Origin: Acidithiobacillus sp. AMEEHan
GTDB taxonomy: Bacteria > Pseudomonadota > Gammaproteobacteria > Acidithiobacillales > Acidithiobacillaceae
Length of the DNA stretch: 64,000 bases
Direction of reading: 5' to 3'
Assembly: GCF_030996345.1 (NCBI RefSeq)
Contig: NZ_CP118747.1
Location: 2,292,001 to 2,356,000 of the forward strand
Part shown: in pieces, positions 743-18,986 of the stretch
Numbering within the stretch: the first letter of the stretch is position 1
How the letters are laid out: the number at the start of each line of letters is the position of its first letter
Translations under genes and position numbers: made by a program
The notes under the pieces: generated by a model
The model's input: only the letters and a program-made list of their open reading frames with translations
Databases searched by the model: none
Told to the model about the DNA's origin: nothing

Positions 743-809
743 AGGTATCTCCACTATTCATTGCACCAAAAGTCCGCCATACCGTCCGCCGATATGGCGT
801 GCGATCGCT

Positions 810-1337
810 TTACCGATACCCGTAACCATAGCCATCGTAGGGGTTGTAAGCGGGTCCGTAGCCGTAGGGACCTGCAGGTGGCGCATAGTTCTGGGCCTGT
901 TGCGGGTACTGCGGCGCCGGGTACCCGCCGCCATAGGCTGGGTAGGGGGAACGCGGCTGGTACTGGGGATAGGCCGGTGGATAGTTGTTGTAGCCATAGC
1001 CTTCGTCGTATCCATTTCCATAGGCCCCGCCATAATAGCCATTGTAGCCTTGTCCGTAGCCGCCGTAGCGGCCACTGTCAAAGTTCATGGGTCCACCATG
1101 GGGCGCGTTGAAGCTCATCGAGCCCATGTCCCACGGGCCACTATTTCCGGTGAAGGGGCCACCATAGCCGCTGAATGGTCCGCTGTTTCCCCAGAACGGG
1201 TTGCTGTAGCCATCACCCCACGGAAATCCTCCCCACGGGCCCCACGCAAAGGCAGGCGCTGCGACTAACAATGCTGACACGCCAGCCGCTACTACTGATC
1301 CCACGATCCAAGTTTTCTTCTGAATCAACGTTTTCAT
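810..1337 (-). CDS. Secreted Gly/Tyr/Trp/Pro-rich protein, sulfur-globule-protein-like
   Basis: 175 residues. I start at ATG 1337 (MKTLIQKK) because AAGGAG sits seven bases upstream; a longer start at 1358 lacks this. A clear signal peptide ends near APAFA. The mature chain is almost entirely Gly, Tyr, Pro, Trp, Asn and Ser and lacks Cys. The early mature part contains GGPFTG, GPWDMGS and GGPMNF, shared with the proteins at 7486 and 8003. The rest is Tyr/Gly/Pro repeats. Sulfur globule envelope proteins of purple sulfur bacteria have a similar composition, so an extracellular structural or sulfur-contact role is possible, but composition is the only evidence. It is the first gene after the leftward sigma-54 promoter. 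Confidence 0.75.
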   Translation of the reverse strand: MKTLIQKKTWIVGSVVAAGVSALLVAAPAFAWGPWGGFPWGDGYSNPFWGNSGPFSGYGGPFTGNSGPWDMGSMSFNAPHGGPMNFDSGRYGGYGQGYNGYYGGAYGNGYDEGYGYNNYPPAYPQYQPRSPYPAYGGGYPAPQYPQQAQNYAPPAGPYGYGPAYNPYDGYGYGYR

Positions 1338-1813: not shown

Positions 1814-1853
1814 TTTTCGGTGAAAAATGCCTATTTCGAGGAATGTCTCAACC

Positions 1854-2999
1854 ATGACTGCCCGAACTTCTTCTCTTTGGCGCCTACTCCCCTGTCTCGC
1901 GTTGAGCGTAGCCCCGGGGTTTGCCTTCGCTGAACCCAGCTTGGTCAAGGTGCATGCCGCTCCCTCTTTGGGGCCCTTACTCGGCGCCCGCGCGATTCCC
2001 GGTCAGGTGGTGGTGTTGCGTGCCCAGACGGGCGGGCGGATCGAATACGTGGCGGGGCCGGCCGGTACCCCAGTGCGCTCCGGCGAGGTGGTCGTTGGCC
2101 TGGGCACCCAAGCGTTGCGTGCGCAGCGGGCGCAGGCCGAAGCCGCCTATCAGGCAGCGCAGATCGCCCTGGGTAATGGCTATTCGCAGTACCAAGTACA
2201 ACTCTATAACTACGGTGGCGGAAGCAACCCTTGGAATCCCTTCGCGTGGTTCGGTCAGGGTATGGCGGCGATGATGGGGAACCAGCAAAACCCCTGGGCC
2301 AACTATCTCGCCACCCTGGACAACCGGCGCGCCGCAGCGATGCAGGCGCAGACCACCCTGCAGTCTGCCGCTTGGCACATTCGCGAGATCGATGCCGAAA
2401 TTCGGGATGCCTACGGGGTTTCCCCTTTCTACGGCGTGATCTTGCAAAAAGACGTGAATCCCGGCGATGTAGTGCAGCCAGGGCAATCCTTGTTGGTCCT
2501 GGGCGGAGCGGGTCCCGCACAGATCCTCGTCGAAGTACCTACCAGCATGAGTAACGGACTGCAGCTGGGAGATATCCTTCAGGTGCGTGCGCCCAATGAC
2601 GCCGGTGTTGTGCGCGCGCAAATCATCCAGATCGCCCCCGAAGCCAATGCACAGACCCACACCTTGGCAGTGAAGCTGGGGCTACCGGCCAACTCCGGCA
2701 TCCGCGCTGGCGACTATGTAACGGTTCGCCTGCCGGCTGCGCAGTCCACTAGCTTGGGGGTGGCAATCCCACGTACTGCCCTGCTTCCCGGACACAGTCT
2801 GCCGTCGGTGCTGGTCGATCAGGATGGGATGACACAATTGCGGGTGCTGCGTCTGGGGGAACCGCTCGCCAATGATCAGGTGCAGGTACTGTCAGGGTTG
2901 CGTCCAGGGGACGTGATCGTCAATGATCCCCCTGCCGGCGTCGGTTCCGGATACCACCTGCAGACGGCAGAGAACGGCACGCCGGGAGCCAATGCATGA
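1854..2999 (+). CDS. Periplasmic adaptor (HlyD/MFP family) of an RND pump
   Basis: 381 residues from ATG 1854 (GAGGA 11 bases upstream). A signal peptide ends near AFA. Next come the lipoyl-like half (QTGGRIEYV, PVRSGEVVVGL), a helical hairpin region, the second lipoyl half (YGVILQKDVNPGDVVQPGQSL), then beta-barrel and membrane-proximal parts. The adaptor would link the inner-membrane pump to an outer-membrane channel. Residues 107-150 of the hairpin are unusual: rich in Gly, Asn, Trp and Tyr (GGGSNPWNPF, NQQNPWANY) where relatives have plain coiled coil. The stop overlaps the start of the RND gene as ATGA. No outer-membrane partner gene is in this operon. Confidence 0.85.
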   Translation: MTARTSSLWRLLPCLALSVAPGFAFAEPSLVKVHAAPSLGPLLGARAIPGQVVVLRAQTGGRIEYVAGPAGTPVRSGEVVVGLGTQALRAQRAQAEAAYQAAQIALGNGYSQYQVQLYNYGGGSNPWNPFAWFGQGMAAMMGNQQNPWANYLATLDNRRAAAMQAQTTLQSAAWHIREIDAEIRDAYGVSPFYGVILQKDVNPGDVVQPGQSLLVLGGAGPAQILVEVPTSMSNGLQLGDILQVRAPNDAGVVRAQIIQIAPEANAQTHTLAVKLGLPANSGIRAGDYVTVRLPAAQSTSLGVAIPRTALLPGHSLPSVLVDQDGMTQLRVLRLGEPLANDQVQVLSGLRPGDVIVNDPPAGVGSGYHLQTAENGTPGANA

Positions 3000-5900
3000 G
3001 CAGCGCCAACTGTAATGGCAATGGCGCCCGTGAGGAGCCGAGCAAGCCTGAGGAAAAAAGCCTGGGTCTGGCGGGCAACATTGCGCGAATTTTTGTCAAC
3101 TCGCCGCTGGCCCCTCTTTTGCTTATCGTCCTCTTGGCCGCCGGTGTACTTGGTCTGATTTCGACCCCGCGGGCGGCTAATCCACAGATTTCCGTGCCCA
3201 TGGTGGACATCTTTGTGCCCTATCCCGGCCATTCGCCAGCGGAAGTTGCGCGCATGGTGACGGATCCCCTGCAACAGTTGATGAGCGAGCTGCCGGGAGT
3301 GCGTCACGTCTACTCGGTGTCCAACGAAGGCGAGGCGATGGTCACTGTGCGCTTTGTCGTCGGTGAGCACATGGCTCCGTCGTTGGTTGCGGTCTATAAC
3401 AAGCTCGCAGCCAACATGAATCGCATCCCTCCGGGGGCGGGCAGGCCGCTGGTTCGCGCCAAAGGCATCAACAGCGTGCCCTTCATGACCTTTACCGTCT
3501 GGTCGCAAAGCGTGGGTCCTGGCACTTTGAACGAGATTGCCGCAAGCGTTCTCAAGCGATTGAAAGAAGTCCCGAACACCGGCGAGAGTTTCATCATCCA
3601 CGGCGCAACCGATGCCCTGAATATCGACGTGCAGCCGACTCGTCTGGCCGCCTTTGGGCTAACCCCACAGGCCGTCGCCAAGGTCGTGGAATCTGCCAAC
3701 CAGGAATTACAGAGCGGGAGTGCGGAAGGCAACAACAGTCAGTTAGCGATTCTCAGTGGCGGCTTTTTGCGCAGCCCGCAGCAAGTCGAGAATTTGGTGG
3801 TCGGGGTCTTTCAGGGCGCGCCGGTGTATCTGGCGCAAGTGGCTTCCGTGCGCTACGGACCGTCCACTCCACATAGTCTGGTCTCCTACACGACAGGCGC
3901 CGGTAGCCATGGCCCGGCCGTGCAGAATGCGCCAGCGGTCACTATCGCTCTCGCAAAAACGGCGGGCAGCAATGCGGTTTCCGTAGCCCAGGCCTTGATC
4001 GCCAAGGCGCATTCTCTGGAAGGCACGGTCATTCCCACTGATGTCCACCTCAGCATCACCCGCGACGATGGCAAGGTGGCCAATGCCAAGGTCAACTCTC
4101 TGCTCTTCAAGCTCTTTGTTGCCACTGCCGCGGTAACGCTGCTAATTTTCCTCACTCTCGGCTGGCGGGCGGCGGCCGTTGTGGTCATCACCATCCCACT
4201 GATCCTGCTGATTACGGTCTTTGCCGCCTGGATCGTCGGCATCACTATCAATCGCGTCAGTCTGTTCGGACTCATTTTCTCCATTGGTATCCTGGTCGAT
4301 GACTCCATCGTCGTTGTCGAAAATGTCTACCGCCGCTGGTTGCTGGAGAACAGCACCGCAACCGACACCCTGATCGATGCCGTGCGCGAGGTGGGCAACC
4401 CGACCACGCTGGCTACCTTCACGGTGATTGCGGCCCTGCTGCCCATGGGCTTTGTGGGGGGCATGATGGGCCCATACATGGCTCCCATCCCGGTATTGGG
4501 GTCGGTGGCAATGTTGTCCTCCCTCTTCATTGCCTTTGCCCTGGGGCCATGGCTGATTCTGCGCTTCAAGCCGAGTTTGCGGGTGCTGGAGAAGATGCAT
4601 CACCGCGAGTCCAAGCAGGCAGCATGGTTACGCAGGTTCTTCGCCCAAACCTTAATTCCCTTGGTGCGCCGAAAGCTCTATGGACGCCTCTTTTTGGGCG
4701 GCATCATCCTGGCCTTCATTGGCAGTCTTGCGTTGTTTTTGCTGGAGTGGGTGCCGTTTACCATGCTCCCGCACGGCAATTCGGATGCCTTCAACGTGGT
4801 GGTCAACATGCCTGCCGGCACGGCCCTGGCGGAAACCGCCAATGCTACCTATGCCATTCAGGAGCGCTTGCAAGACATGAAGGATGTCCGCGCGCTGCAA
4901 AGCTACGTCGGCGCCCCAGAGCCCTATGATTTTAATGGGATGGTCCGCCATTACTATCTGCGCCATCAGCCTTGGCAAGCGATGATCCACGTGCAGTTGG
5001 TGAATAGCGACCAACGCTCTGCCTCCAGCGCTCACCTGGCTACCGTAGCACGCGAGCGGATCAAGGCAATCGCTGCGAGTTGGGGGGCACGCATTCAGGT
5101 CGTACAAACCCCGCCCGGACCGCCGGTGCTCGCCCCGGTGGTGGCAGAGGTCTACGGACCTTCCAGCGAGGTGCGGGATGCCGTTGCCCGGCATCTGGTT
5201 GCGGTCTTTGAACACAGCAAGAACCTGACCGACGTCAACAGCACCCTGATGGCGCCGCACGATCTGCTCGCCTTCCAGGTAGATAGCACCCGGGCTGGCA
5301 TGGCGGGAATCAGCAACGCGACCGTGAATCAGACCCTGGCGATGGTCATGGGTGGGTATTCCCTGGGGGATTTTCACCCGTTTGGCCAGGACCTCGCGGT
5401 ACCCATGCGCCTGCAAGCCCCCCTGGCCCTGCGCAGCAACGTGCAGAATCTGGCGAGCCTGCCTGTCCCTTCACCCTATTATGGCTCAGTGCCCCTCTAT
5501 AGTGTGGGGAACTTTGCGCGCGTCCCTGCACAAGCACCCATCTACCAGCAGGATCTGCGCCCCGTACAATATGTGATGGGGGATACGCAGGGCCGCCTGA
5601 ACGCACCACTGTATGGCATGTTGGAGGTGGAAGCCGCGCTCAGTCACTATCTGGCACCAACGGGCAAAGCCCTGGGTATCGATTGGATCAGCCAACCCAG
5701 TGGTGATACCGCGAGCATCAAGTGGGGCGGGGCATGGACCGTGACCTACGTGACCTTCCGCGACATGGGTGCTGCATTCATGGTCGCCCTGGTGTTGATC
5801 TACATGTTGGTGGTCTGGGAATTCGGGAATTTCGTCATTCCCGCGATCATCATGGTGCCCATTCCGCTGACTCTGATTGGGATTCTGCCTGGGCACTGGC

Positions 5901-6502
5901 TCTTCGGCGCCAGTTTTACCGCTACCTCGATGATTGGCTTCATTGCTCTGGCGGGCATCATCGTCCGCAACTCGATCCTGCTGGTGGACTACTCGCAGAG
6001 GAAAGTGGCTGACGGCTATCCCGTTCTCGATGCCCTAATCGAGGCCTGCGCAACGCGCACCCGGCCGATCGTCATCACCGCCTTGGCGCTGATGTTGGGT
6101 TCGGCAGAAATCATCACCTCGCCCATCTTCCGTGGTATGGGAATTTCTCTGCTCTTTGGTGTGATGGTATCCACCATCCTCACCCTGCTGGTCATTCCCA
6201 TGGGCTGCGTCAGCGGACGCCGTGCCTTCTGCCCCGCCAGCGTTGATTTGGGCGATGGCAGTCATGGTCACCAAGCACCCTTTCCCATGAGCCGAAGGAA
6301 CTGGATCGTGGTCAACGCCAGCGAGTTGCCACTGACACGCAGGGAGGATGTGCCACCCACCCCGCAGCAGCGCCTGCGAAAAACATCTTCGTTGACGTCC
6401 CTGATCACGTTCATCTCTCTACTGTTGCACAGCTTTTGGAACGATTTCATTTGGTTTTTGGCGTCCTGGCGTCATTTTTTCACGCGCCGATCTGGCAAGT
6501 AA
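2996..6502 (+). CDS. RND-family efflux/export permease
   Basis: 1168 residues, an inner-membrane proton-driven pump. It has the usual order: first transmembrane helix (about residues 36-55), first periplasmic loop (PGHSPAEVARMVTDP), the helix 2-6 block with the paired Asp in GILVDDSIVVVENVYRRW (TM4), a second loop, then the helix 8-12 block (IIVRNSILLVDYS; TRTRPIVITALALM). About 100 residues follow the last expected helix (from VIPMGCVSG), making it longer than the usual 1020-1060. That tail ends in a hydrophobic amphipathic stretch. The substrate is unknown. The operon suggests it moves something linked to the secreted Gly/Trp- and Pro-rich proteins or to sulfur chemistry. Confidence 0.9.
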   Translation: MSSANCNGNGAREEPSKPEEKSLGLAGNIARIFVNSPLAPLLLIVLLAAGVLGLISTPRAANPQISVPMVDIFVPYPGHSPAEVARMVTDPLQQLMSELPGVRHVYSVSNEGEAMVTVRFVVGEHMAPSLVAVYNKLAANMNRIPPGAGRPLVRAKGINSVPFMTFTVWSQSVGPGTLNEIAASVLKRLKEVPNTGESFIIHGATDALNIDVQPTRLAAFGLTPQAVAKVVESANQELQSGSAEGNNSQLAILSGGFLRSPQQVENLVVGVFQGAPVYLAQVASVRYGPSTPHSLVSYTTGAGSHGPAVQNAPAVTIALAKTAGSNAVSVAQALIAKAHSLEGTVIPTDVHLSITRDDGKVANAKVNSLLFKLFVATAAVTLLIFLTLGWRAAAVVVITIPLILLITVFAAWIVGITINRVSLFGLIFSIGILVDDSIVVVENVYRRWLLENSTATDTLIDAVREVGNPTTLATFTVIAALLPMGFVGGMMGPYMAPIPVLGSVAMLSSLFIAFALGPWLILRFKPSLRVLEKMHHRESKQAAWLRRFFAQTLIPLVRRKLYGRLFLGGIILAFIGSLALFLLEWVPFTMLPHGNSDAFNVVVNMPAGTALAETANATYAIQERLQDMKDVRALQSYVGAPEPYDFNGMVRHYYLRHQPWQAMIHVQLVNSDQRSASSAHLATVARERIKAIAASWGARIQVVQTPPGPPVLAPVVAEVYGPSSEVRDAVARHLVAVFEHSKNLTDVNSTLMAPHDLLAFQVDSTRAGMAGISNATVNQTLAMVMGGYSLGDFHPFGQDLAVPMRLQAPLALRSNVQNLASLPVPSPYYGSVPLYSVGNFARVPAQAPIYQQDLRPVQYVMGDTQGRLNAPLYGMLEVEAALSHYLAPTGKALGIDWISQPSGDTASIKWGGAWTVTYVTFRDMGAAFMVALVLIYMLVVWEFGNFVIPAIIMVPIPLTLIGILPGHWLFGASFTATSMIGFIALAGIIVRNSILLVDYSQRKVADGYPVLDALIEACATRTRPIVITALALMLGSAEIITSPIFRGMGISLLFGVMVSTILTLLVIPMGCVSGRRAFCPASVDLGDGSHGHQAPFPMSRRNWIVVNASELPLTRREDVPPTPQQRLRKTSSLTSLITFISLLLHSFWNDFIWFLASWRHFFTRRSGK

Positions 6503-8488: not shown

Positions 8489-9094
8489 ATGCGAGCTTTC
8501 ATTGCGCGTTTGATTTTTCTCGTGATCCTAGTGGTCATTGTCTTGTTCGGAATCGTTACCATCCAGCATCCGGACACCTGGCAGAAGGACTGGCGGACCG
8601 TGCGAACATTTTTCCTCAGACACTGGCAGGATTTCCAGGGTCAGAAACAGCCCCGTCCAAGTTCGCCGGCAACGGTGGCGCCGGCACAGCATCCCGTACC
8701 TATGACCCTGGCGATACCGCCGCCAACGCCGAGCCAATCGGCTGCCCCCGAGGCTGTCTCACCACCTACTCGCTCCCAGGCGCAGCTCAATGAGCGACAA
8801 CTGTCCCTGCTCATGGCCGCGCGACAAGCGTTTTGGTTGGGAGAGTACCCCGTTGCCATTGGCGACTACCGCGCGCTTATCAACGCCAATCCTGGGCATG
8901 CAGCACTGTATGGTGAGCTCGGCAACGTGCTCTGGCACTCCGGCCAGCGCATTGCCGCGGCTACGGCCTACGCCCATGCCGGGCGTCTGTTGCTCCTTCA
9001 GGGAAACTACCGAGAGGCAGCTGCACTCATTCCCATCCTCATGCGCCTTGATCCGGAGGCGGCCGCACATCTGCAGGAGGAGCTTGCCCGATGA
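8489..9094 (+). CDS. Membrane-anchored TPR-like protein
   Basis: 201 residues with a strong ribosome site (GAGGGGAGGAG). Residues 5-27 form an N-terminal membrane anchor, followed by a Pro/Ala-rich linker. Residues 100-195 are a helical repeat module (MAARQAFW, AIGDYRALI, YGELGNVLW, YAHAGRLLLLQG). That module is recognisably the same as in the gene at 1-742 and in the next gene. The next gene starts inside its stop codon (ATGA). It probably faces the periplasm and binds another protein; this is inferred from topology and fold type. Confidence 0.78.
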   Translation: MRAFIARLIFLVILVVIVLFGIVTIQHPDTWQKDWRTVRTFFLRHWQDFQGQKQPRPSSPATVAPAQHPVPMTLAIPPPTPSQSAAPEAVSPPTRSQAQLNERQLSLLMAARQAFWLGEYPVAIGDYRALINANPGHAALYGELGNVLWHSGQRIAAATAYAHAGRLLLLQGNYREAAALIPILMRLDPEAAAHLQEELAR

Positions 9095-9669
9095 CCTCTT
9101 CACGAATTCATCTAACCCGCGCGATGCCTACCAATCACCTGACTCGCCTTCCCTTGCTGCTGAGTGTCGCGATTACCCTCTTCGCTGGCACGGCAATGGC
9201 TGCGGAGCCGACAAAGCCGAACACGAGCAAAGCAGCCACAAAGACCTCTTCGACGGACCATCTAGCCCAGTCAGTAAAACAATCCGAGCCAGCGAAGAAA
9301 ACGGAGACATCGACGAAGATGGCTATGGCCAAGGCGTCTCCTCGAGCGCAGAGGGCTGCGGTGGAAAAGCTGGTGGAACAGGCTCGCGCCGCCTATTGGC
9401 ATGGAGACATTGCCGCTGCCATTGCAAGCTACCAGGAGCTGATCAAGGAACACCCGCAAGCACGCTGGTATGGCGAACTGGGGAATATCTACCTACAAAT
9501 TGGCTATCCGCGCGCGGCCGCGCAGAATTACTACCATGCTGCTCGCGCGTTGATGGCCGCTGGTCGCCCTCTGGAAGCAGGTGCATTGCTTCCCACGCTG
9601 CAGCGTCTTGATCCCCCGCTCGCGGCAAAGCTTTTAGCGAGTGCATCCCCACACAAGGAGACTCATTGA
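9091..9669 (+). CDS. Secreted TPR-like protein
   Basis: 192 residues. ATG 9091 overlaps the preceding stop; an alternative ATG at 9124 gives a more standard signal peptide (LLLSVAITLFAGTAMA). A Lys/Thr/Ala-rich linker precedes the helical module (EQARAAYWHGDIAAAIASY, YGELGNIYLQ, YYHAARALMAAGR). It is the third paralogue of the family, and unlike the other two it is cleavable rather than anchored. The tight overlap with its neighbours implies coordinated production. No catalytic motif is seen. Confidence 0.76.
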   Translation: MTSSRIHLTRAMPTNHLTRLPLLLSVAITLFAGTAMAAEPTKPNTSKAATKTSSTDHLAQSVKQSEPAKKTETSTKMAMAKASPRAQRAAVEKLVEQARAAYWHGDIAAAIASYQELIKEHPQARWYGELGNIYLQIGYPRAAAQNYYHAARALMAAGRPLEAGALLPTLQRLDPPLAAKLLASASPHKETH

Positions 9670-10193
9670 TGGCGCAGGAACCCCAAACACCCGCACCAGA
9701 GCACCACAACTTGGCTGGGCTGTCTGACCGTCAGTTACGCATGATCGTTTTTGCAGCGCTAACGGCTTTTCTGGTGTTGGCGGCATACGAGTTTTATCTG
9801 GCGGTGGCCATGAGTCGAGATCTGCGAGAGATGACCAAACAGGTGCAGGCCCTGAGCCCCAATGTGCAGCGCAATATGGATAGCATGGCACAAAACATGC
9901 GGCAGATGACGGCATCGACCGATTACATGGCGCAAGCTACCGGCCAAATGCAGGCGGATTTCTGGAGTCTGAACAAGAACGTCTCTCCTCCCTTCTCGTT
10001 TTTTGCTGGCTTGGTGCCTTGGGCAAATCAGCACAGCCCCTATTCCGGACCTGATCATCCTTTGCCATTGCCGCCGCAAGCGGACTATGCTGCCCCGTAT
10101 GGACCGCTGCAAGCTCCCTACCCAGACCCCTATGGTCAGGTCGGTTCCTACGGATATGGGATGAGCCGTCCCGGCCCGATACAGGAAAGGTGA
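9669..10193 (+). CDS. Small single-pass membrane protein with Pro/Tyr-rich tail
   Basis: 174 residues from ATG 9669, which overlaps the previous stop (TGATG) and has AAGGAG eight bases upstream. Residues 24-46 form one hydrophobic helix. A Met/Gln/Asn-rich amphipathic stretch (MTKQVQALSPNVQRNMDSM) follows and is probably coiled coil. The last 60 residues are rich in Pro, Tyr and Gly (QADYAAPYGPLQAPYP), echoing the secreted proteins of the operon. The family is not recognised. Topology suggests a periplasmic coiled coil that could contact the exported Pro/Tyr-rich proteins. Confidence 0.75.
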   Translation: MAQEPQTPAPEHHNLAGLSDRQLRMIVFAALTAFLVLAAYEFYLAVAMSRDLREMTKQVQALSPNVQRNMDSMAQNMRQMTASTDYMAQATGQMQADFWSLNKNVSPPFSFFAGLVPWANQHSPYSGPDHPLPLPPQADYAAPYGPLQAPYPDPYGQVGSYGYGMSRPGPIQER

Positions 10194-10195
10194 TC

Positions 10196-11548
10196 ATGGC
10201 CGACCTCGATGACAAAGCACTGGAAATTGTTTGTACCGTCATGCCGCAAATCCTGGAGGGCATGACCTTTGGCATGATGGTTGCCGACCCACAAGGTAAA
10301 CTCCTGTATCACAATCCCGTGGCTGACCGTTTTCTCGGCATCCAATCGGTCACGCAACTGCGCGACATCCCCAACTTGCAGTTGCAAAAGGAAATTGTGC
10401 GCGCGGCAATCTCCGCGGGTCATGACGATGCGGTGAGTCGGCCAACGGAAAACTGCATCAGTTGGGATCGCGTCGTTACCGTTGACAACGAAACCCGGAT
10501 CCTCGCCATCCGTACCCGCATGGTACGGCATCGCGACAAAAAATATCGGGTCTTTTTCATCGAAGATGTGACTACCCTGCGGCAGGCAGAACGCAACCTG
10601 TCCGGAGAGGCACGTGCCGGAATTCACAGTAAGGATCCGCAGATGCTGCGGGCGATCGAACTGATCGAGCAGGTAGCTCCCAGCGACGCGAGCGTCCTGA
10701 TTCAGGGCGAGTCCGGTACCGGCAAGGGCATGCTCGCGCGTCTGCTGCACGACACCAGCCAGCGTGCACACAAACCATTGGTAGAGGTGAACTGTGCTGC
10801 CATTCCGGAGAACCTCTGGGAGGCAGAATTCTTTGGTGCGGTAAAGGGTGCCTATACCGGCGCCGTTGGTGATCGTATCGGACGTTTTGCCGCCGCCGAT
10901 GGTGGAACCCTGTTCCTGGACGAAATCAGCGAATTATCTAAACCGCATCAGGCTAAGTTGCTAAAGGTGTTGGAGGAACAGGCCTTTGAGCCGATCGGCT
11001 CAATGAAGACGCGCAAGGTCGATGTGCGGGTAGTGGCGGCCACCAACCAGGGTCTGAAGGATGCGGTTGAGCGGGGCGACTTTCGCGCCGATCTGTTCTA
11101 CCGCCTCAATGTCATCCCTGTGAATGTACCTCCTTTGCGCGAGCGGCGTTCCGATATCGTCCATCTGGCGAATTACTTCTTGGCCAAGTTCGGCGGTCGG
11201 GAGGCGCGCAAGATTGGCTCGGAGGTCAAGCATCTACTGCTGGATTACCCCTGGCCCGGCAATGTGCGGGAACTACGCAACATTATGGAATACGCCAGCA
11301 TCTGTGCCAATGGAGAAGAGCTGGAGCTGGCGGATCTACCGCAGGATTTCGTCGAGCGGGTACAGAAACGCTCGCCCACGTCGGGAGATGGCGACCAAAG
11401 CGGCGAAGATGAACGGGATCTGCTCGCCAATCTTCTGCAAAAACACGGCAACAACCGCAGCGCGGTAGCCCGCGAACTCGGTATCGACCGGGTCACGCTG
11501 TGGCGGCGCATGACCCGACTGGGACTCAGCAACGTCAGCGAGGTCTAG
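10196..11548 (+). CDS. Sigma-54-dependent transcriptional activator (PAS-like, AAA+, Fis HTH)
   Basis: 450 residues. ATG 10196 is preferred over GTG 10190 because AGGAAAGG is well placed. Residues 1-125 resemble a PAS sensor (GMTFGMMVADPQGKLLYHNPVADRFLG). The AAA+ domain has Walker A GESGTGKG (171-178), the sigma-54 contact loop as GAYTGA rather than GAFTGA (218-223), and Walker B GGTLFLDEI. A Fis-type helix-turn-helix ends the chain (NRSAVARELGIDRVTLWRRM). There is no receiver domain, so sensing is probably by direct ligand or redox signal in the PAS part. As the last gene of a sigma-54 operon, it is the obvious activator of the two promoters at 1448 and 1798. Confidence 0.92.
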   Translation: MADLDDKALEIVCTVMPQILEGMTFGMMVADPQGKLLYHNPVADRFLGIQSVTQLRDIPNLQLQKEIVRAAISAGHDDAVSRPTENCISWDRVVTVDNETRILAIRTRMVRHRDKKYRVFFIEDVTTLRQAERNLSGEARAGIHSKDPQMLRAIELIEQVAPSDASVLIQGESGTGKGMLARLLHDTSQRAHKPLVEVNCAAIPENLWEAEFFGAVKGAYTGAVGDRIGRFAAADGGTLFLDEISELSKPHQAKLLKVLEEQAFEPIGSMKTRKVDVRVVAATNQGLKDAVERGDFRADLFYRLNVIPVNVPPLRERRSDIVHLANYFLAKFGGREARKIGSEVKHLLLDYPWPGNVRELRNIMEYASICANGEELELADLPQDFVERVQKRSPTSGDGDQSGEDERDLLANLLQKHGNNRSAVARELGIDRVTLWRRMTRLGLSNVSEV

Positions 11549-11670
11549 CGCCGCATGACTCGCTTGCTGAGAAACTGCGGATACCCCGCACCTGTATTAC
11601 GTCAATCCAGAGAAAGAATATCCATTTTCCAGGATGACATGCATGTTTGGACAAAGCACAAGCAGAACTG

Positions 11671-11679
11671 TGGTATACT
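11671..11679 (+). promoter_or_regulatory. Extended -10 promoter for the bufferin-like cluster
   Basis: TGG followed by TATACT makes an extended -10 element, with transcription expected near 11686 and a leader of about 50 bases. No good -35 exists at 17 bases. No sigma-54 element is present here, so this cluster is controlled separately from the upstream operon. Confidence 0.5.
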
Positions 11680-11734
11680 TATGACTTTGAGACTTCCTGT
11701 TACCGGAACTCCAAATCGATTCGGAGGAATCACC

Positions 11735-12028
11735 ATGAATACATCCGCAAAATTGGGCTTGGCCTCGCTCTTTGCCCTGAGTCTCGGCAGCCTGCCCCTA
11801 GTGGCTGACGCCAGTACGACCCCGCCCATGAATGGGCAAGCACAGATGTCGCAAAATGGCACGAAGATGGGCGAAGGTAACTGCTCCCGCATGATGGGGG
11901 AAGGTAACTGCTCACGGAGCATGGGTAAGATGGCGGAATCCCATTGCACCAGCAAGGCGCAAATTCGCGCCCATGACGGCAAGTGTGGCAAGACGTACAT
12001 GAAGAAGATGGCGGAGGCAGGCAAATAG
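11735..12028 (+). CDS. Bufferin-like Cys-rich secreted RiPP precursor (BufA-like)
   Basis: 97 residues from ATG 11735 with CGGAGGAATCACC just upstream; the frame stays open further 5' but without a ribosome site. A signal peptide ends near VADA. The mature part has four Cys, at 50, 59, 71 and 84, in EGNCS, EGNCS, ESHCTS and DGKCGK contexts, and many Met and Lys. Bufferin precursors are secreted peptides whose Cys lie in EGKCG-type motifs and are modified by an MNIO enzyme to bind copper. The next two genes are exactly that enzyme and its partner. The EGNCS variant is unusual. A metal-binding role, likely copper, is inferred. Confidence 0.8.
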   Translation: MNTSAKLGLASLFALSLGSLPLVADASTTPPMNGQAQMSQNGTKMGEGNCSRMMGEGNCSRSMGKMAESHCTSKAQIRAHDGKCGKTYMKKMAEAGK

Positions 12029-12039
12029 ACTTCTCGGCA

Positions 12040-12852
12040 ATGGCTTGGGGGCTCGGATTGAGACGGGAGTTCCTGTCGGAGTTCGCGCAGCGTTGCACGT
12101 CCCTACCCGTAGACTTCGTGGAGATTGCGCCGGAAAACTGGCTGGATTTTTCCGGTCCGGCAGCTAGGGATTTGCAGCAGGTACTCAAGCATAAGCCGCT
12201 CTTTTGTCACGGGCTTTCTTTGTCGATTGCCGGGCCCGAGCCCATCAACCGAGAATTCCTTTTGCGCCTGCGTGACTTTCTGCGTGCGCATGGCGCAGTC
12301 GTTTACAGCGAGCACTTGGCGTATTGTCAGGACGCCCAGGGCTACCTCCACGACCTGCTCCCCATTCCCTTCCACGAGCAGAGCCTGCGTTGGACCGTCG
12401 AAAGGATTCAGCGGGTGCAAGACTTTCTTGGGCAACCCCTGGTACTGGAAAATACCGCCTTCTATGGCGACTTTCCGGAATCAGACCGCAGTGAGCTCGA
12501 ATTTTTGCTGGCGGTGCTGCAAGAGAGCGGCTGTGAACTCCTACTCGACCTCAACAATCTTTTCGTCAACAGCCAGAACCACCACTACTCCGCCAGCGAT
12601 TTCCTGGCTGCTTTACCCGCAGAGCGCATCCGCTACTACCACGTCGCGGGCTTTTATATCCATCCGGCAGGATGGCTGATCGATACCCACGACAGCGGCG
12701 TAAGTCCCGAAGTCACCGCACTGCTGCGCGAGGCGTGGCAGCGTTTCGGTGCGCGCCCTACTCTCCTGGAATGGGACAATGACATCCCGCCCCTGGAAAC
12801 CCTTCTCGATGAACTACAACGACTACGCCATGGCATCGCCGACGCAGCCTAG
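12040..12852 (+). CDS. bufB: MNIO-family (DUF692) peptide-modifying iron enzyme, BufB-like
   Basis: 270 residues from ATG 12040, 11 bp after the precursor; the ribosome site is weak, so coupling to the precursor is likely. This family of multinuclear non-heme iron oxidases modifies Cys in ribosomal peptides. Conserved metal-ligand regions are visible in order: FVEIAPENWL, HGLSLSIAG, EHLAY, LENTAFYG, LLDLNNLFVN, YYHVAGF, DTHDSGVS and LLEWDNDIP. Length fits the family (about 270-290). Substrate recognition would depend on the protein encoded next. Confidence 0.88.
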   Translation: MAWGLGLRREFLSEFAQRCTSLPVDFVEIAPENWLDFSGPAARDLQQVLKHKPLFCHGLSLSIAGPEPINREFLLRLRDFLRAHGAVVYSEHLAYCQDAQGYLHDLLPIPFHEQSLRWTVERIQRVQDFLGQPLVLENTAFYGDFPESDRSELEFLLAVLQESGCELLLDLNNLFVNSQNHHYSASDFLAALPAERIRYYHVAGFYIHPAGWLIDTHDSGVSPEVTALLREAWQRFGARPTLLEWDNDIPPLETLLDELQRLRHGIADAA

Positions 12853-13597
12853 CTACGCGGAGCGCCTGCGCGACGTGGCTAGTTGCGTGCGCCGATCGCA
12901 TGGTCCTCTGCCAGCAGGATGGTCGCCGGAAATTTTTGCATTGTATCGCGAGATGGTTCGCGCGAGCTTTGCCGCCAATCTCGAAGATGCCTTTCCCCAG
13001 ACACGGCGCCATCTTACCAGCGAGGCGTGGGAAACGCTGCTCGACGATTTTCTAGCCCACGGCGACTGCCCCAGCCCCAGCTTTCATGCCGTACCCGGCG
13101 CCTTCTGCGAATTTGTGCTCGGGCACCTCGAAGACTACCTTGAACTACCGCAATATTTGCCCGCGTTGCTGCACTGGGAGTGGCTCACTCTGCACCTGGC
13201 CATCATCGAGAATTCGGCAGAATCCGGGGAGAGCAACCTTGCCGAAGGATGGATGCAACTCGCCCCCAGCGCCAGTCTGCAACATTACCCCTTCGCCGTG
13301 CACCAGAACACCGAGGTGGCTCAAGCGCCGGCCAGGCGCGACTGCTATCTGCTGATCTACCGGGATCGCCAAGACCGTGTTTTCAGCCGCGAACTGGAGC
13401 TGCAGGAGGCGCGTCTGGCAGCGGCGTTGCTGGAGTCCCCCCATACCCTGACCGAGGCCCATGCCCTGGCCTTTCCTACAGACGAATGTCCCTTGGGCTG
13501 GTCGCGAGAACTCTTGGGTACCTGGGCTGCCGCCGGGATCATCTACGTTACGAACCTGAACCCTTCGCTGGCTGAGATTTCGCCATCTCCGCCTTGA
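12809..13597 (+). CDS. bufC: DUF2063 protein, BufC-like partner of the MNIO enzyme
   Basis: 262 residues if ATG 12809 is used, or 255 from ATG 12830; both lie inside the 3' end of the enzyme gene and neither has a strong ribosome site. The N-terminal region (YAERLRDVASCVRRSHGPLP... FALYREMVRASFAANLEDAFPQTRRHL) is the DUF2063 signature. Such proteins provide precursor recognition for MNIO enzymes. The C-terminal half is helical with no enzyme motif. Its 3' end overlaps the convergent pspA gene by 50 bp. DoxX-type membrane partners often found in bufferin operons are absent here. Confidence 0.82.
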   Translation: MNYNDYAMASPTQPSYAERLRDVASCVRRSHGPLPAGWSPEIFALYREMVRASFAANLEDAFPQTRRHLTSEAWETLLDDFLAHGDCPSPSFHAVPGAFCEFVLGHLEDYLELPQYLPALLHWEWLTLHLAIIENSAESGESNLAEGWMQLAPSASLQHYPFAVHQNTEVAQAPARRDCYLLIYRDRQDRVFSRELELQEARLAAALLESPHTLTEAHALAFPTDECPLGWSRELLGTWAAAGIIYVTNLNPSLAEISPSPP

Positions 13598-14273
13598 GCC
13601 GCGCAAGATCGTCATCGACGCCACTTTGCTCGCGCAGTTGCGCCATCTCTTTGTCGGTCTTGCTGCGATGATCGAGGGGATCATCGATGGCGCCCGAATC
13701 CATCAGCGCTTCCATCGCCTCGGCCTTGCTCTGCGATTGCCCCAGACGATCCTGCACGCGCTGCATCGCCTCGCCGGCGTCGTTCATGCCCTTGCCCAGT
13801 CCAGACAGCGAATTCTCGGCTTGGATCTCGGCCTGGGAGGCCGCCAACTCGCCCTTCATCACTTCCTTCTGGGTACGAAAGGACTCGATCCGGTCCTGCA
13901 GCTTGGTCTCGAACTCCGTAAGTTTGTCGACTTGTGCCGCAATCTTGTCATGCGCCTCCTGCAGCGACTGCAGCTTGGCCAAGGCGGCCTGCTTTTGGGC
14001 GAGCTCCGCCTTGGCGAGGTCTTCCCGGTTGGCCTGCAGCGCCGTGCGGGCATCGGCCTCGGCCTGGTCCGCCGCTTTTTTGGCATCGGCCATCTGATGC
14101 TCCAAACTCAGTTTTTCGGTGGCGACATCGGCCAGATGGCGTTTGGTATCCTGCAGATTGCTCATCATCTTTTCGTAGGAAAGGTCCAAAGTCTCCGAAG
14201 GATCCTCGGCATTGTCCAGAAAATGATTGATGCGCGCCTGCACAATTTCCGATGCGTGCTTGAATAATGACAT
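13548..14273 (-). CDS. pspA: PspA/IM30-family membrane-stress protein
   Basis: 241 residues, almost wholly helical, starting MSLFKHASEIVQARINHFLDN as PspA proteins do. A long coiled coil rich in Ala, Glu, Lys and Gln fills residues 30-150. PspA is an ESCRT-III-like protein that binds stressed inner membrane. The usual pspF/pspBC genes are not adjacent; instead the upstream genes of the same strand encode YbjQ-domain proteins 18 bp away. The 3' end overlaps the bufC-like gene convergently. Confidence 0.88.
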   Translation of the reverse strand: MSLFKHASEIVQARINHFLDNAEDPSETLDLSYEKMMSNLQDTKRHLADVATEKLSLEHQMADAKKAADQAEADARTALQANREDLAKAELAQKQAALAKLQSLQEAHDKIAAQVDKLTEFETKLQDRIESFRTQKEVMKGELAASQAEIQAENSLSGLGKGMNDAGEAMQRVQDRLGQSQSKAEAMEALMDSGAIDDPLDHRSKTDKEMAQLREQSGVDDDLARLKAEMAKSQPAKGSGS

Positions 14274-14291
14274 GCTCGTTCTCCTGCAAAT

Positions 14292-15110
14292 TTAATCGTT
14301 GACGGGCAAGACCAGCTGCGGACGCAGGGCATCTACCCGGTGGTCTGCATCATCCATCGCCTTCACCGCCGTACCCACAGCAAAAAACTCGATCACGTGC
14401 GGCTTCCAGTTATGACTCCCCTCATGCAACTGGACGCCGGTGATGCCATCCGCCTGGGCATCGGCTGCCTCCTGCTGCATCCGCTCCATGGCCAATTCGC
14501 GGGCGTCGTACATGGCCTGGGTAAACTGCTCCAGCTCGGTATTGCGGCCGATATTCCCCATGCTGCGCAGCACACCCTGGTGGGCTACATGGTAGACACA
14601 GGAACCCATTACCATTTCCATGGGGCGATACCCTGCCTCCAGCAACATCCAAAAGTCCTGGCCGGAGAGATCACTGGTGAAAGGCTTGCCGCCGACTCCC
14701 TTGAATCCCGGTGCACCCGAACGGTGCGCAATGGCCGTACCGATGGCCATGAATTCCAGAATGTCCTGGTCCCAGTCCATGCGCTTTACTTCCAGGCGCA
14801 CACCAACCACGCCATCCGCCTGCAGGATGATGGCCTCCTGTTCCATGCGGCTCATGGCCAACTCACGGGCCTGATACATCGCCTGCGAAAGAACGTCCAT
14901 CTCCATGTTTTGATTCCAGCTGCCATACTGGATGCCCATGTGATAGATGCACGAGCCGACCACCAGCCCCAGGGGCTCGAATTCCGCTTTACGCACCATG
15001 ACAAATTCGTTCACGGAGAGGTCGGAGGTGAAAATGCCTTCGTGACTCCCTTGGGAGCGGAGGCCCTTGAGACGTTCTACGGCGTGGGGAGCAATCACTT
15101 CTTCAGTCAT
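14292..15110 (-). CDS. Tandem YbjQ-domain cytosolic protein
   Basis: 272 residues made of two repeats of the YbjQ (PF01906) type, about residues 20-130 and 140-260. Both repeats have the hallmark run of small residues and Met/Glu helices ([15 protein letters not shown]...[24 protein letters not shown]...ADGITGVQL). No signal peptide or membrane helix. The family is often called heavy-metal-binding, but its function is not established. Cys occurs only in GSCIYH and GSCVYH, once per repeat. The gene overlaps the next upstream gene by 4 bp and sits 18 bp before pspA. Confidence 0.72.
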
Positions 15111-16075
15111 AGGAGATCCTTGCGATGGGGGCGGAAAGAATGCAACGGCCCTCCCAGAGAAACCGTGGGGAGCAATTCGTGTTGCGGTGCGCGGGAAGGC
15201 TCGTAGCTGACGGCGGTGCCAATGGCGATGTGCCGGCAGAGGAAGCCCTCCCCTTGTTCGTTATTGACGCGGAACAACTGGGAATACTGAGTATGGGCGA
15301 GGACCCCCGCCCCCAGCTTGCGGCCGTCTTCGCGCAGGTTATAGAGCGCGCGACGGCGGACGTTTTCCTGAAAGCTCGAGAGATCCGGGATCTCCATATT
15401 CCAGTAGCGCGTGGCAAAGGGCGCCGCCTGGCTGGCTTGATCGAGCACCGTCCCACCCCAGGGCTGGTACCAGTCATACTCGGCACCAATGGCAATACCC
15501 ACTGGCACCACCCCCTCTTCCAGCAAACGCACGAACTCCAGCGACGACACCGTCGCCACGGCCGGCTCCCAGGCCGGAGGCAGATCCTGGATACGCACTG
15601 CGGTGCCCATCAGGGCGTAATCCATATCCTCGCCATCGCCGTGACGCACGCGCATATCGACGTTGAGGACAGCGTTGGCACCCATCGCCACCGCCTCCAG
15701 GCGCAGGCGATCGATAGCCTGGTGCCACCCTTCATAATGCCCTTGGGTCCAGGAAAAACCGAAGTGATACCAACAATTGCCTCCCACCATGCCGAGCGGA
15801 TGGATGCCGTGACTACGTTCCATCAGCAGCGCGGCAACCGGGCCACTTTGTATCCACGGACGTTGTCCGGCTGCGGTATTGCGCAAACGCTCCTGCACAA
15901 AACTGGGCAGACGTCGTTGCTGCAAGGCCATCTGCCATTCCGCCGCCCGCTGCTGCGCCGCCGCACTGGGGGCGACGTTGACCGCGCTCACCTGGCTCGC
16001 GACGTTGGCAACCGTCTTTTCCAGGTCCTCGGTAACTTCCTGGATTCCCTTCTGAATCTTGTCCCACAGCGACAT
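15107..16075 (-). CDS. Tandem YbjQ-like domain protein with amphipathic N-terminus
   Basis: 322 residues from ATG 16075 (GAGGTGACT upstream). Residues 1-60 start [20 protein letters not shown], an amphipathic helix resembling membrane-binding helices. Two YbjQ-like repeats follow, the first with [12 protein letters not shown] and [11 protein letters not shown], the second more diverged ([14 protein letters not shown]). It shares the overall plan of the gene at 14292 and overlaps it by 4 bp. Function unknown; linkage to pspA suggests envelope stress. Confidence 0.68.
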
Positions 16076-16085
16076 AGTCACCTCG

Positions 16086-16466
16086 CTACTGCAGTAAAAA
16101 GTCATGCAGGGTCTGGCTCGCCGCCTGCATTTCCGCGGAGATCGCTGCCGTGTCCTGCAGCAGCGACTTCAGCCAGTCTCCCAATGAGAGGATCTCGCGT
16201 TTCAGCACTACATTGCGCACCACCCGGGCGCGCAAGGTTTCCACATGAGTGCCGTTCACATTCAGGTGGTAGTCGAACTCGCCCGCATGCACCACCAAGT
16301 GTTCTAGATGCTGATGAGAAGAGAAAAGGCCGTCTTTTTTACGATCCACCTCGACAAAACCCGGCATGCCCTGCTCCAACCGTTCGGCCAGCGCCTCCAG
16401 AAATGCCTTCATATCCGTCTGGGAGCGGCGTATCCAAGCCGCGCTGTCGTCAAAACTGATATCCAC
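16086..16466 (-). CDS. Small hypothetical protein of the pspA cluster
   Basis: 126 residues. I start at GTG 16466 since GAGGAG lies six bases upstream; a start at 16505 has no ribosome site. It is soluble, acidic-basic mixed, with a helical C-terminus ([31 protein letters not shown]). No family recognised. It is the first gene of the minus-strand cluster, 10 bp before the YbjQ-like gene, and shares a 136 bp divergent region with gadB. Confidence 0.6.
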
Positions 16467-16602
16467 AGCATCTCCTCGCAAAACTGCGTCATCTATACAG
16501 ACCACACCAATAGATTGTAGTTCGTTTTATAGCTTTCTGCGCTCCTGCAATAGATACCTCTACTAGACTTATGGCGAGTCCAGCCAAAAGCAGGAGTAGC
16601 AA

Positions 16603-17975
16603 GTGACAAAAAGCAAAGCGAAAGATTCCTTTTTGACCCCTACCTATGGCGCGCGTCGCATGGACGCCCCCATCCCGAAGGAGTACCTGCCCGAGGGTGA
16701 TCTGGAACCACAGGTCGCCTATCAGCTCATTCACGACGAACTGCTGATGGACGGTAACGCCCGCCTGAATCTGGCGACCTTCGTCACTACCTGGATGGAT
16801 CCAGAGGCGCGCACCCTGATGGCGGAATCCTTCGATAAAAATATGATCGACAAGGACGAATACCCGCAAACTGCGGAAATCGAGCGCCGCTGCGTTCAGA
16901 TCATCGCCCATCTTTTCCACGCCAAAGACAAGGAGGAGCCCATCGGCGTTTCGGCGATCGGCTCCAGCGAGGCAGTGATGCTGGCGGGCATGGCGATGAA
17001 ATGGCGTTGGCGCGAGTGGCGCCACGAGCAGGGGAAGGACAGCTCCCGTCCCAATCTGATCCTGGGCAGCAACGTGCAGGTCGTGTGGGAAAAATTCTGC
17101 CGCTATTGGGAGGTAGAACCACGCTACATTCCCATCCACGAGGATCGCTACGTTATCAGCGCAGAGGAAGTCACCGCGCGCATGGACGAAAACACCATCG
17201 GCGCAGTCGCCATTCTCGGCACTACGTTTACGGGCGAATTTGAGCCCATACGCGCCATTCACGATGCCATGGTCAAGGCGAACCAAAAACGCGGACTACA
17301 GGTGCCTCTGCACGTCGACGCTGCCAGCGGCGGATTCGTTGCCCCGTTTCTGCATCCTGATCTGGAATGGGATTTTCGTTTGCCCAATGTCGCATCCATC
17401 AATGTCTCCGGGCATAAATACGGGCTGGTATATCCCGGCATCGGCTGGGCGCTTTGGCGCGGCAAGGCCTATTTGCCTGAGGATCTGATTTTTCATGTCA
17501 ATTACCTGGGCGGCGACATGCCTACCTTCACCCTGAATTTTTCCCGGCCTGGCAACCAGGTCGTCGGTCAATATTATAATTTTCTGCGTCTGGGGCGCGC
17601 GGGATACACCCGAATCATGAAGAACCTGCAGGACATTGCGCTATGGCTCAGTGGCGAAATCGCCAAAATCGGCCCTTTTTCTCTGTTGAGTACGGGCGAA
17701 AATATCCCGGTCTTTGCCTTTCGCTTGCGCGATGGCCAACGGTATTCGGTGTACGACGTTTCCGATCGCTTGAAAATGCGGGGCTGGCAAGTGCCCGCCT
17801 ACACCCTGCCCAAGGACGCTGAAAAGCTCGCGGTTTTGCGCGTCGTTTTGCGTGAGGGATTCTCTCGCGACATGGGTGAAATTCTCTTGCGCGATCTGCG
17901 CGGGGCCATCGAAGCGTTGGAAAAGGACCCCCCAGTCATCCCCAGGGACCCGGCAAGGAGTCCTTTCACCACTGA
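16603..17975 (+). CDS. gadB: Glutamate decarboxylase, C-terminus shifted by a missing base
   Basis: PLP enzyme converting glutamate to GABA while consuming a proton, an acid-resistance reaction. GTG start with CAGGAG upstream. The PLP lysine lies in SGHKYGLVYPG, with HVDAASGGF before it. As written, the frame runs to 18132 (509 residues) and reads the flippase gene antisense. Adding one C to the run at 17928-17933 gives a tail ending in SFHH and a stop at 17973-17975. That end resembles the SFKHT-type terminus of E. coli GadB and gives the usual length of about 457. I therefore give 17975 as the end. No glutamate/GABA antiporter gene is adjacent. Confidence 0.88.
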
Positions 17976-17981
17976 CCGTTA

Positions 17982-18986
17982 TCAAGGGAGCGGTTCCACC
18001 TTTGCCAGCGGGTGGCGACCAATGCCGAGCCACAGCCAGGCACCGGGCAGACTGGTCAGCAAGACCGTCGTACCGGCCAGCAGGGACAGAGCGAGGGCCT
18101 GGTCATGGCCCATCTGCAGTGCCCCCATGTAGAGCACCAACAGACCCTCCCGTAGCCCCCAACCGGCGAGGGATATTGGCAACGCCAAAAACAGGCTGAC
18201 CACCGGCCAGACGACCCAGAATGCCGCGGCGTCGGGGCGCTCCCCCAAGGAATGGGCCAGGGCCCAGAACATGAAAATGGAGCAAAGTTGTACGAAAACC
18301 GACAGCAAAAAGGTAGAAAGCAAGGCGCTGGGATTGCGCAACAGCATTCCCATTCCTTCTCGGATATCGTGCAGTTTGCGCCCCATTTTACCGACACGGT
18401 GTTCAAGAAAATCGAGCCCCGGACTCAGGATCAGGGTAATGATCCCGGCGTAGCCGGCGCTCAGGATCGCGACAGTCTCACCCATTCCGGGCAACAGACG
18501 CAGGACGTGACCGCCCAGCAGATAGCCCAACAGGGCAATGCCAACCAATGCCCCCATACCAATGAAGCGATCGGCAAATACCACGGCCAAGGCCAGGGTG
18601 GCAGAACCCGCCTGCGTGCGGGTATACCAGGCGCGCAATACGTCCCCGGATACCGAGCCGGGCAGCACCTGATTGAAATATGCCCCTACCCAGTTCAGGC
18701 GCAGCAACCAAAGCACCGGAGCGCGCTTTTTGGCCGCGCGCAGAATGACCGCCCAACGCAGGGAAGACACGGAAAGATTTACCGCATAGGCGAGCACGGC
18801 CAGCAAAAACCAGGGAAGGCGAATTTGCAAGAAGCGTTGCGTCAGAGCCGTCCAGTCGGTCTTGTGAAAGAGCCAGATAAAGATCGAGATGGTGACGACG
18901 ATCTGCAGCAGCAGACTCCAGGGGATCCTCTTGCGGTGTTTTTCTGCTCTCACCGGACGAGACTGCGGTTGAACGGGCATTGGCAA
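17982..18986 (-). CDS. Flippase-like/LPG synthase transmembrane-domain protein
   Basis: 334 residues with eight or so hydrophobic segments, matching the lysylphosphatidylglycerol-synthase TM family (PF03706). Typical motifs are NLSVSSLRWAVIL, NQVLPGSVSGDVLRAW, DRFIGM and LPISLAGWGLREG. Such proteins handle polyprenyl or lipid-linked substrates in the inner membrane. The N-terminus is basic. It lies 12 bp downstream of pabB on the same strand. The specific substrate cannot be told from sequence. Confidence 0.85.
   Translation of the reverse strand: MPMPVQPQSRPVRAEKHRKRIPWSLLLQIVVTISIFIWLFHKTDWTALTQRFLQIRLPWFLLAVLAYAVNLSVSSLRWAVILRAAKKRAPVLWLLRLNWVGAYFNQVLPGSVSGDVLRAWYTRTQAGSATLALAVVFADRFIGMGALVGIALLGYLLGGHVLRLLPGMGETVAILSAGYAGIITLILSPGLDFLEHRVGKMGRKLHDIREGMGMLLRNPSALLSTFLLSVFVQLCSIFMFWALAHSLGERPDAAAFWVVWPVVSLFLALPISLAGWGLREGLLVLYMGALQMGHDQALALSLLAGTTVLLTSLPGAWLWLGIGRHPLAKVEPLP

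Follow-up and report, generated by a model that had tools for sequence, protein, structure and literature searches.

What is made by three tightly packed genes at positions 11735–13597 of the window (the whole 64,000-nt stretch of Acidithiobacillus sp. AMEEHan DNA analysed here), and what does the unusual Cys pattern of the small peptide encoded by the first of them mean for its modification? ORFs and Pfam matches identify the three, all on the forward strand, as a precursor gene, an MNIO gene and a gene for a DUF2063 partner, in the order originally predicted. The precursor ORF (11735–12028, 97 aa, with a GGAGG ribosome site at 11723–11727) starts with a putative Sec signal peptide, judged by eye (MNTSAKLGLASLFALSLGSLPLVADA, 11735–11812), and has four Cys, in the contexts EGNCS (11873–11887), EGNCS (11900–11914), ESHCTS and DGKCGK, exactly as first described. 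All four fit a relaxed [ED][GS]xC pattern, and only DGKCG is canonical-like. Towards its C-terminus the peptide has a conserved 22-residue module with two Cys (ESHCTSKAQIRAHDGKCGKTYM, 11936–12001). The MNIO gene (12040–12852, ATG at 12040) belongs to the MbnB/TglH/ChrH family (PF05114) and is nearest to HvfB. The third gene (about 12830–13597) encodes a PME-type 1 partner, with DUF2063 and an NGO1945_C/RRE-type domain; its ATG at 12830 overlaps the MNIO stop at 12852, and an ATG at 12809 is an alternative start.

A PAS/sigma-54 activator gene (10190–11548, forward; Pfam) precedes these genes and a convergent PspA/IM30 gene (13548–14273, reverse; Pfam) adjoins them downstream, so the operon most likely consists of just the three. 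No receiver domain was detected in the activator, which also lies just upstream of the operon in loci L003 and L114, and does not do so in L002. The PspA/IM30 gene is followed by two YbjQ-family (“putative heavy-metal-binding”) genes, the set (13548–16105, reverse) being convergent to the operon. Farther away, 1827–6502 (forward) encodes an HlyD/CusB-type adaptor and an RND pump whose nearest solved relatives are multidrug-type; the pump (2996–6502) was considered as a copper exporter and rejected, both for those relatives and because CusA was not among the matches listed (60 of 83). Pfam scans of 20 neighbouring ORFs gave nothing pointing particularly to copper, no regulator or further metal gene could be linked to the operon, and PADLOC gave no match.

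The 69 bp immediately before the precursor (11666–11734, forward) align with those of L002, although the operon there has a different setting and different genes farther upstream; this suggests that it carries its own promoter along with it. This block is common to the window and L002 only, being absent from the eight other upstream regions compared. It contains a candidate extended -10-like element (TGGTATACT, 11671–11679, forward) and a candidate imperfect inverted repeat (GACTTCC-N7-GGAACTC, 11691–11711, forward). The repeat was considered as a CueR-like site, but it lies 3′ of the sole -10-like element and is common to L002 only; that candidate was dropped and no regulator is claimed. A consensus promoter scan returned no sites (0.8 expected), inspection of the upstream region by eye found no known metal-regulator site and no nameable copper operator, and an Rfam search over 9000–18500 gave no match.

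The family assignments of the enzyme and its partner are firm at the Pfam level. The MNIO matches PF05114 with 310.6 bits (cut-off 25, E = 1e-92), and no other PF05114 match occurs in the 2.63-Mb host genome. The partner matches PF09836 (DUF2063; 53.3 bits, cut-off 27.2, E = 3.5e-14), PF22106 (NGO1945_C; 42.2 bits, cut-off 27, E = 1.1e-10) and the structure 3DEE (E = 1.6e-6). In 17/17 acidophile loci checked (16 genomes) it lies directly downstream of the MNIO. The MNIO structure predicted by AlphaFold2 (pLDDT 91.8) has 3BWW as its best structural match (TM 0.82), then TglH and MbnB. Residues of the kind that binds iron in this family (His, Glu and Asp) recur at invariant positions in an alignment of 35 MNIOs.

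The more specific models give a different picture, since all three proteins fall below the NCBIfam cut-offs of the HvfABC equivalogs: the MNIO scores 318.8 bits against HvfB (cut-off 360), the partner 133.9 against HvfC (cut-off 142), and the precursor only weakly against HvfA (NF050188; 21.4 bits, cut-off 95, E = 3e-4). The MNIO is also below the cut-off for BufB (268.1 of 310 bits), and methanobactin was rejected on a MbnB score of 49.3 of 325 bits. No Pfam family, and so not DUF2282 either, matches the precursor up to E = 1, and the EGKCG repeats that mark the EGKCG/oxazolin branch are missing from it. In an MNIO tree (a quick tree with the specificity-site columns removed, and with a long-branch warning for its Acidithiobacillaceae/EG part), the Acidithiobacillaceae enzymes form one group (SH-aLRT 94) inside a 92-row EGKCG-type clade (support 100, starred), apart from the bufferin 1 and 2 enzymes. 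The original prediction of a bufferin-type cluster therefore holds in the wide sense, that of a RiPP-type cluster with an MNIO, a DUF2063 partner (both by Pfam) and an atypical core, and fails in the strict sense, on the MNIO tree and the lack of DUF2282. It had also taken EGKCG as a bufferin motif, while in the available portions of PMC12452194 and PMC13097082 that motif belongs to the oxazolin/captophorin branch and not to bufferins 1 and 2. From sequence comparison, the cluster most likely represents the MNIO-PME1 (“captophorin”) metallophores in a variant special to one family, the Acidithiobacillaceae.

The EGKCG-type captophorins named in the part of PMC13097082 available are fontiphorin (fonABC), oxazolin (hvfABC) and gonophorin (ngoABC); 5-thiooxazoles are published for all three, and copper binding for fontiphorin and gonophorin. 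The window operon shares with them the order precursor-MNIO-PME1, a Cys peptide with [ED]GxC repeats and a conserved Arg pair in the MNIO. Unlike them, it has EGNCS for EGKCG, no leader motif, a conserved two-Cys C-terminal module, Asn for Phe at the MNIO site equivalent to Phe250 of FonB, and scores under the HvfA, HvfB and HvfC cut-offs. The bulbicupramide cluster mmrABC of Microbulbifer (PMC12538549, seen in part) is likewise minimal, with three genes and a repeat core in which the number of Cys varies, but there the leader is conserved and the core varies, whereas in the present family the stretch after the signal is the least and the C-terminal module the most conserved. Some Methylophilaceae EGKCG-type clusters (mixed KCG and SCS/NCS; L005–L052 in part) resemble it in having Cys-Ser repeats, some of them EGNCS, and often a non-Phe MNIO site; unlike the window they keep an NPF..GY leader and lack the C-terminal module, and their MNIOs are about 43–49% identical to its own. 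The buf operons of bufferin 1 and 2 also combine an MNIO and a PME-type 1 partner with a Cys precursor that bears a signal peptide, a putative one in the window, and differ in precursor family, MNIO clade and the residue at the Arg16 site (PMC12452194, in the part available).

Judged by the MNIO, the nearest named relatives are Acidithiobacillus sp. YTS05 (90% identity) and Candidatus Igneacidithiobacillus taiwanensis (76%). A profile search found the precursor family in 19/29 Acidithiobacillaceae genomes, and the same 19 have an MNIO at least 53% identical to that of the window (G011 a partial one, 65% over 139 residues). Of the ten genomes without the precursor family, nine have no MNIO match and the tenth (G002) only a 36% match. 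Family precursors carry from 0 to 4 EG(N/G)CS repeats plus the module; among 15 aligned operon precursors, 14 have two to four and one (L113) has a single repeat, the form being EGGCS in L113 and both precursors of genus g4, and EGNCS in the others. The odd core is thus a family trait, as the sequences have it, and not a quirk of the window genome. Nor is EGNCS a unique form: it is conserved in related acidophiles, and some precursors of Methylophilaceae (L013, L022) contain repeats of the EGNCSAE type. Over 96 codons the window and L002 precursors differ at 34 third and 13 first or second positions (dN 0.06, dS 0.97), a pattern of purifying selection at the codon level, which together with the occurrence of the family in 19/29 genomes argues that the precursor is not a chance ORF. 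Mobility was considered and rejected: the precursor has no plasmid match, and none of the MNIO relatives found on 352 plasmid records reaches 60% identity.

Conservation along the precursor is uneven. Mean between-genus identity (94 pairs from 19 sequences) is 68% for the module, 40% for the first 26 residues and 21% for the stretch from there to the first repeat, so that the least conserved part follows the signal peptide and the most conserved is at the C-terminus. The module, which comes after the repeats, has the pattern E.xC[TV]S...I[RK][AT]H[DG]G[KN]CGK..M, with 9/22 positions invariant among 12 distinct versions. A model of it matches 19/29 Acidithiobacillaceae genomes. Among 398 genomes sampled across the phylum its sole confident match was the host genome of the window, and two of the 397 others gave short partial matches (E = 0.006). 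The full precursor model, run against 369 genomes of the class, matched two family members and eight others, all eight being EGKCG-type precursors without the module.

Four genomes (G011, G014, G024 and G026) have an extra or detached gene of the family. In G011 and G026 this gene has a signal-like start and the module, without EGNCS, while in G014 and G024 it has one EGNCS and the module. The G026 precursor beside the enzyme is the reverse, with two EGNCS and no module; at 880 contigs and 7% contamination, however, the G026 assembly may combine two strains. The G014 enzyme has no visible precursor next to it, the matches to the precursor model being on other contigs. These separate module-only and repeat-only arrangements indicate that the module behaves as an independent unit. 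G024 (C130) and G027 (C295) also have decayed precursor copies, and L147 (1537–1653) and L148 (220–336) contain 38-aa module remnants from which the first Cys is gone. Two module-only genes from two genomes, L145:1304–1549 (reverse) and L146:1188–1499 (forward), are divergent from genes at 1855–2589 (forward) and 279–899 (reverse), respectively, named DsbG-like by eye. In L110/L151 (G014) and L143 the MNIO and partner have no adjacent precursor and a gene for a one-EGNCS-plus-module precursor lies on a different contig; the substrate of the enzyme may therefore be produced elsewhere.

The second peculiarity of the precursor is its N-terminal side. A leader motif after the signal peptide, [NS]PF..L..GY, defined here from the loci gathered in this analysis, is present in 67/76 canonical EG-type precursors and missing in that of the window, and no acidophile row was flagged even for a looser form ([NM][PS]F or GY). 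The mmr system has a conserved N-terminal leader, which is modelled to bind the RRE of the partner (PMC12538549, in the part available). The C-terminal module could either dock the partner in place of the lost leader, whose role it would then take over, or itself be a metal site. A strong reading of the leader loss is weakened by the FonBC system, where, as far as the accessible text of PMC13097082 reports, no single Ala change before the core stopped modification. A still more far-reaching version, in which the leader logic is reversed, a module capable of standing alone recruits the enzymes to the EGNCS array, and Asn or His in place of Phe beside the catalytic Asp of the enzyme permits 5-thiooxazoles followed by Ser, Thr or Val as an acid-suited copper ligand, is put forward tentatively and is rather doubtful.

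Given the genes, order, homology, conservation, co-occurrence and residue changes observed, and by analogy with characterised relatives for the chemistry, export and copper role, the locus is probably a three-gene operon of the captophorin kind, in its Acidithiobacillaceae form, making an exported copper-buffer peptide with 5-thiooxazoles. In the cytoplasm the DUF2063 partner would present the precursor to the multi-iron MNIO, which would oxidise Cys in [ED][GSA]xC contexts to 5-thiooxazoles, each Cys losing 4 H and the peptide at most about 16 Da if all four react. The putative Sec signal peptide would then export the modified peptide, whose soft donors would complex Cu(I) and keep it buffered in the periplasm. 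In hosts that inhabit metal-rich acid, a thiol-based copper buffer would have to work at low pH.

The same chemistry with a ligand or trigger other than copper, either another soft metal or oxidative or thiol stress, is on balance unlikely, though the hosts are inhabitants of metal-rich acid, and DsbG-like genes (by eye) stand beside some of the module-only genes. Inducers of such clusters include gold and oxidative stress; against this, the characterised captophorin relatives generally bind Cu (both from the available part of PMC13097082).

Which of the Cys are modified may depend on the enzyme, and here the window MNIO differs at one position of interest. In the model of Gadgil et al. (PMC13097082, in part), Arg15 and Arg16 of FonB lie around the Glu three residues before the Cys, and Phe250 is near the Lys and Gly that flank it. 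The window MNIO has Arg8-Arg9 at the first two sites and Asn247 at the third. The Arg pair would suit an acidic residue three before the Cys, a preference that the four [ED][GS]xC contexts of the window peptide fit, and Asn in place of Phe would make room for Ser, Thr or Val after it. The altered modification pattern raised in the original prediction is plausible as a shift in specificity, with Asn where EGKCG-type MNIOs usually have Phe. The published substrate tests cut both ways. Among double variants after the Cys, FonBC processed only Ala and was blocked by the others, so EGNCS may be no substrate at all; on the other hand, modification of an LVHCY substrate was seen once, and the F250A and F250D forms of FonB were mostly wild-type-like, so the Phe250 model is not proved (PMC13097082, available part).

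The link between this site and the core was therefore followed across loci. Of 242 gathered, 233 had an MNIO match and ten were left out as duplicates, leaving 223 aligned; by precursor pattern 91 are EG-type, 38 bufferin 1, 55 bufferin 2 and 39 unclassified, the last including the acidophile L113, with a single EGGCS, and L110/L151, two entries for one gene that lacks an adjacent precursor, while L005 was counted as bufferin 2 though it looks EG-type with mixed Cys-Gly and Cys-Ser. Among the EG-type loci the Phe250 site is Phe in 33, none of which (0/33) has Cys-Ser in the core, a count of core Cys only, the apparent exceptions L238 and L090 being pre-core Cys from an early start or signal peptide. 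The site is non-Phe in the other 58, of which 44 have Cys-Ser: Asn 25/25, Thr 9/10 (L008 being the one without), Ile 4/4, His 2/2, Leu 1/1 and Ser 3/16. In the acidophiles it is Asn in the window and in genera g1 and g2, and His in g4. Non-Phe sites fall in two separate groups of the tree, Acidithiobacillaceae and Methylophilaceae, both with Cys-Ser cores. After correction for the tree, however, there are three supported independent pairs (mostly three in the expected direction and none or rarely one against; six pairs with all branches), with a median p of 0.25, which is not significant, and Phe-versus-rest coding gives only two independent pairs. With so few pairs and the long-branch warning, the link between the site and Cys-Ser is suggestive, not established.

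These counts bear on a narrower possibility, that only the DGKCG Cys, perhaps with that of HC[TV]S, is modified and the EGNCS repeats stay as plain thiols or disulfides. DGKCG is fully accepted by FonBC, whereas residues other than Ala after the Cys block it (PMC13097082, in part), and the detached genes of G011 and G026 carry the module but none of the EGNCS repeats. The association of EGNCS cores with Asn or His at the Phe250 site, the non-Phe sites and Cys-Ser repeats of the Methylophilaceae, and the retention of Glu and Gly before the Cys in the repeats all argue against it, and this restricted modification is distinctly unlikely. It is highly improbable that the cluster is a genuine bufferin 1 or 2 whose precursor has degenerated. 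An EWDNDIP stretch in the MNIO does resemble bufferin 1 enzymes (W in 36/38, N in 20/38, the next D in 27/38), but model scores, a precursor without Pfam match and an MNIO inside the EGKCG-type clade led to rejection of strict bufferin 1/2. The Arg16 site is Arg as in 87/91 EG-type loci; most of the 38 bufferin 1 loci have Ala (13) or Ser (11) there, and most of the 55 bufferin 2 loci Thr (20) or Pro (14). For bufferin 2 in particular, the four Cys show no Buf_6/12Cys pattern by eye, and the MNIO has Asn at the Phe250 site, versus Asp in 45/55 loci.

The probable thiooxazole-bearing copper-buffer operon thus offers a natural, testable case of how thiooxazole-forming MNIOs choose their Cys, with acceptance of Cys-Ser predicted to hinge on a single residue next to the catalytic Asp, and raises the possibility of a C-terminal element in place of the usual leader. 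A literature search found no paper describing these peptides in Acidithiobacillaceae, although supplementary lists, which lay outside the search, may hold these loci. Acidithiobacillus with DUF692 and Acidithiobacill- with MNIO returned nothing, Acidithiobacill- with “bufferin” apparently just the word “buffering” among the matches listed, and the strings EGNCS, HDGKCGK and AHDGKCG only papers unrelated by title. Within the main text available, PMC12452194 contains neither “EGNC” nor “Acidithiobacill”, and PMC13097082 does not contain “Cys-Ser”.

Other MNIO clusters occur in the same family. Four Acidithiobacillaceae loci (L116, L117, L118 and L123) have one with an MNIO 33–34% identical to that of the window and a precursor with two GGMMRHGCSGK- or MMGHGCSSK-like motifs, preceded by two ORFs for DsbG-like thiol proteins (by eye, DPNCPYCH motifs). 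One genome, G023 (L092, L123, L124, L127), has six MNIO matches, including two identically scored pairs, in at least three cluster types.
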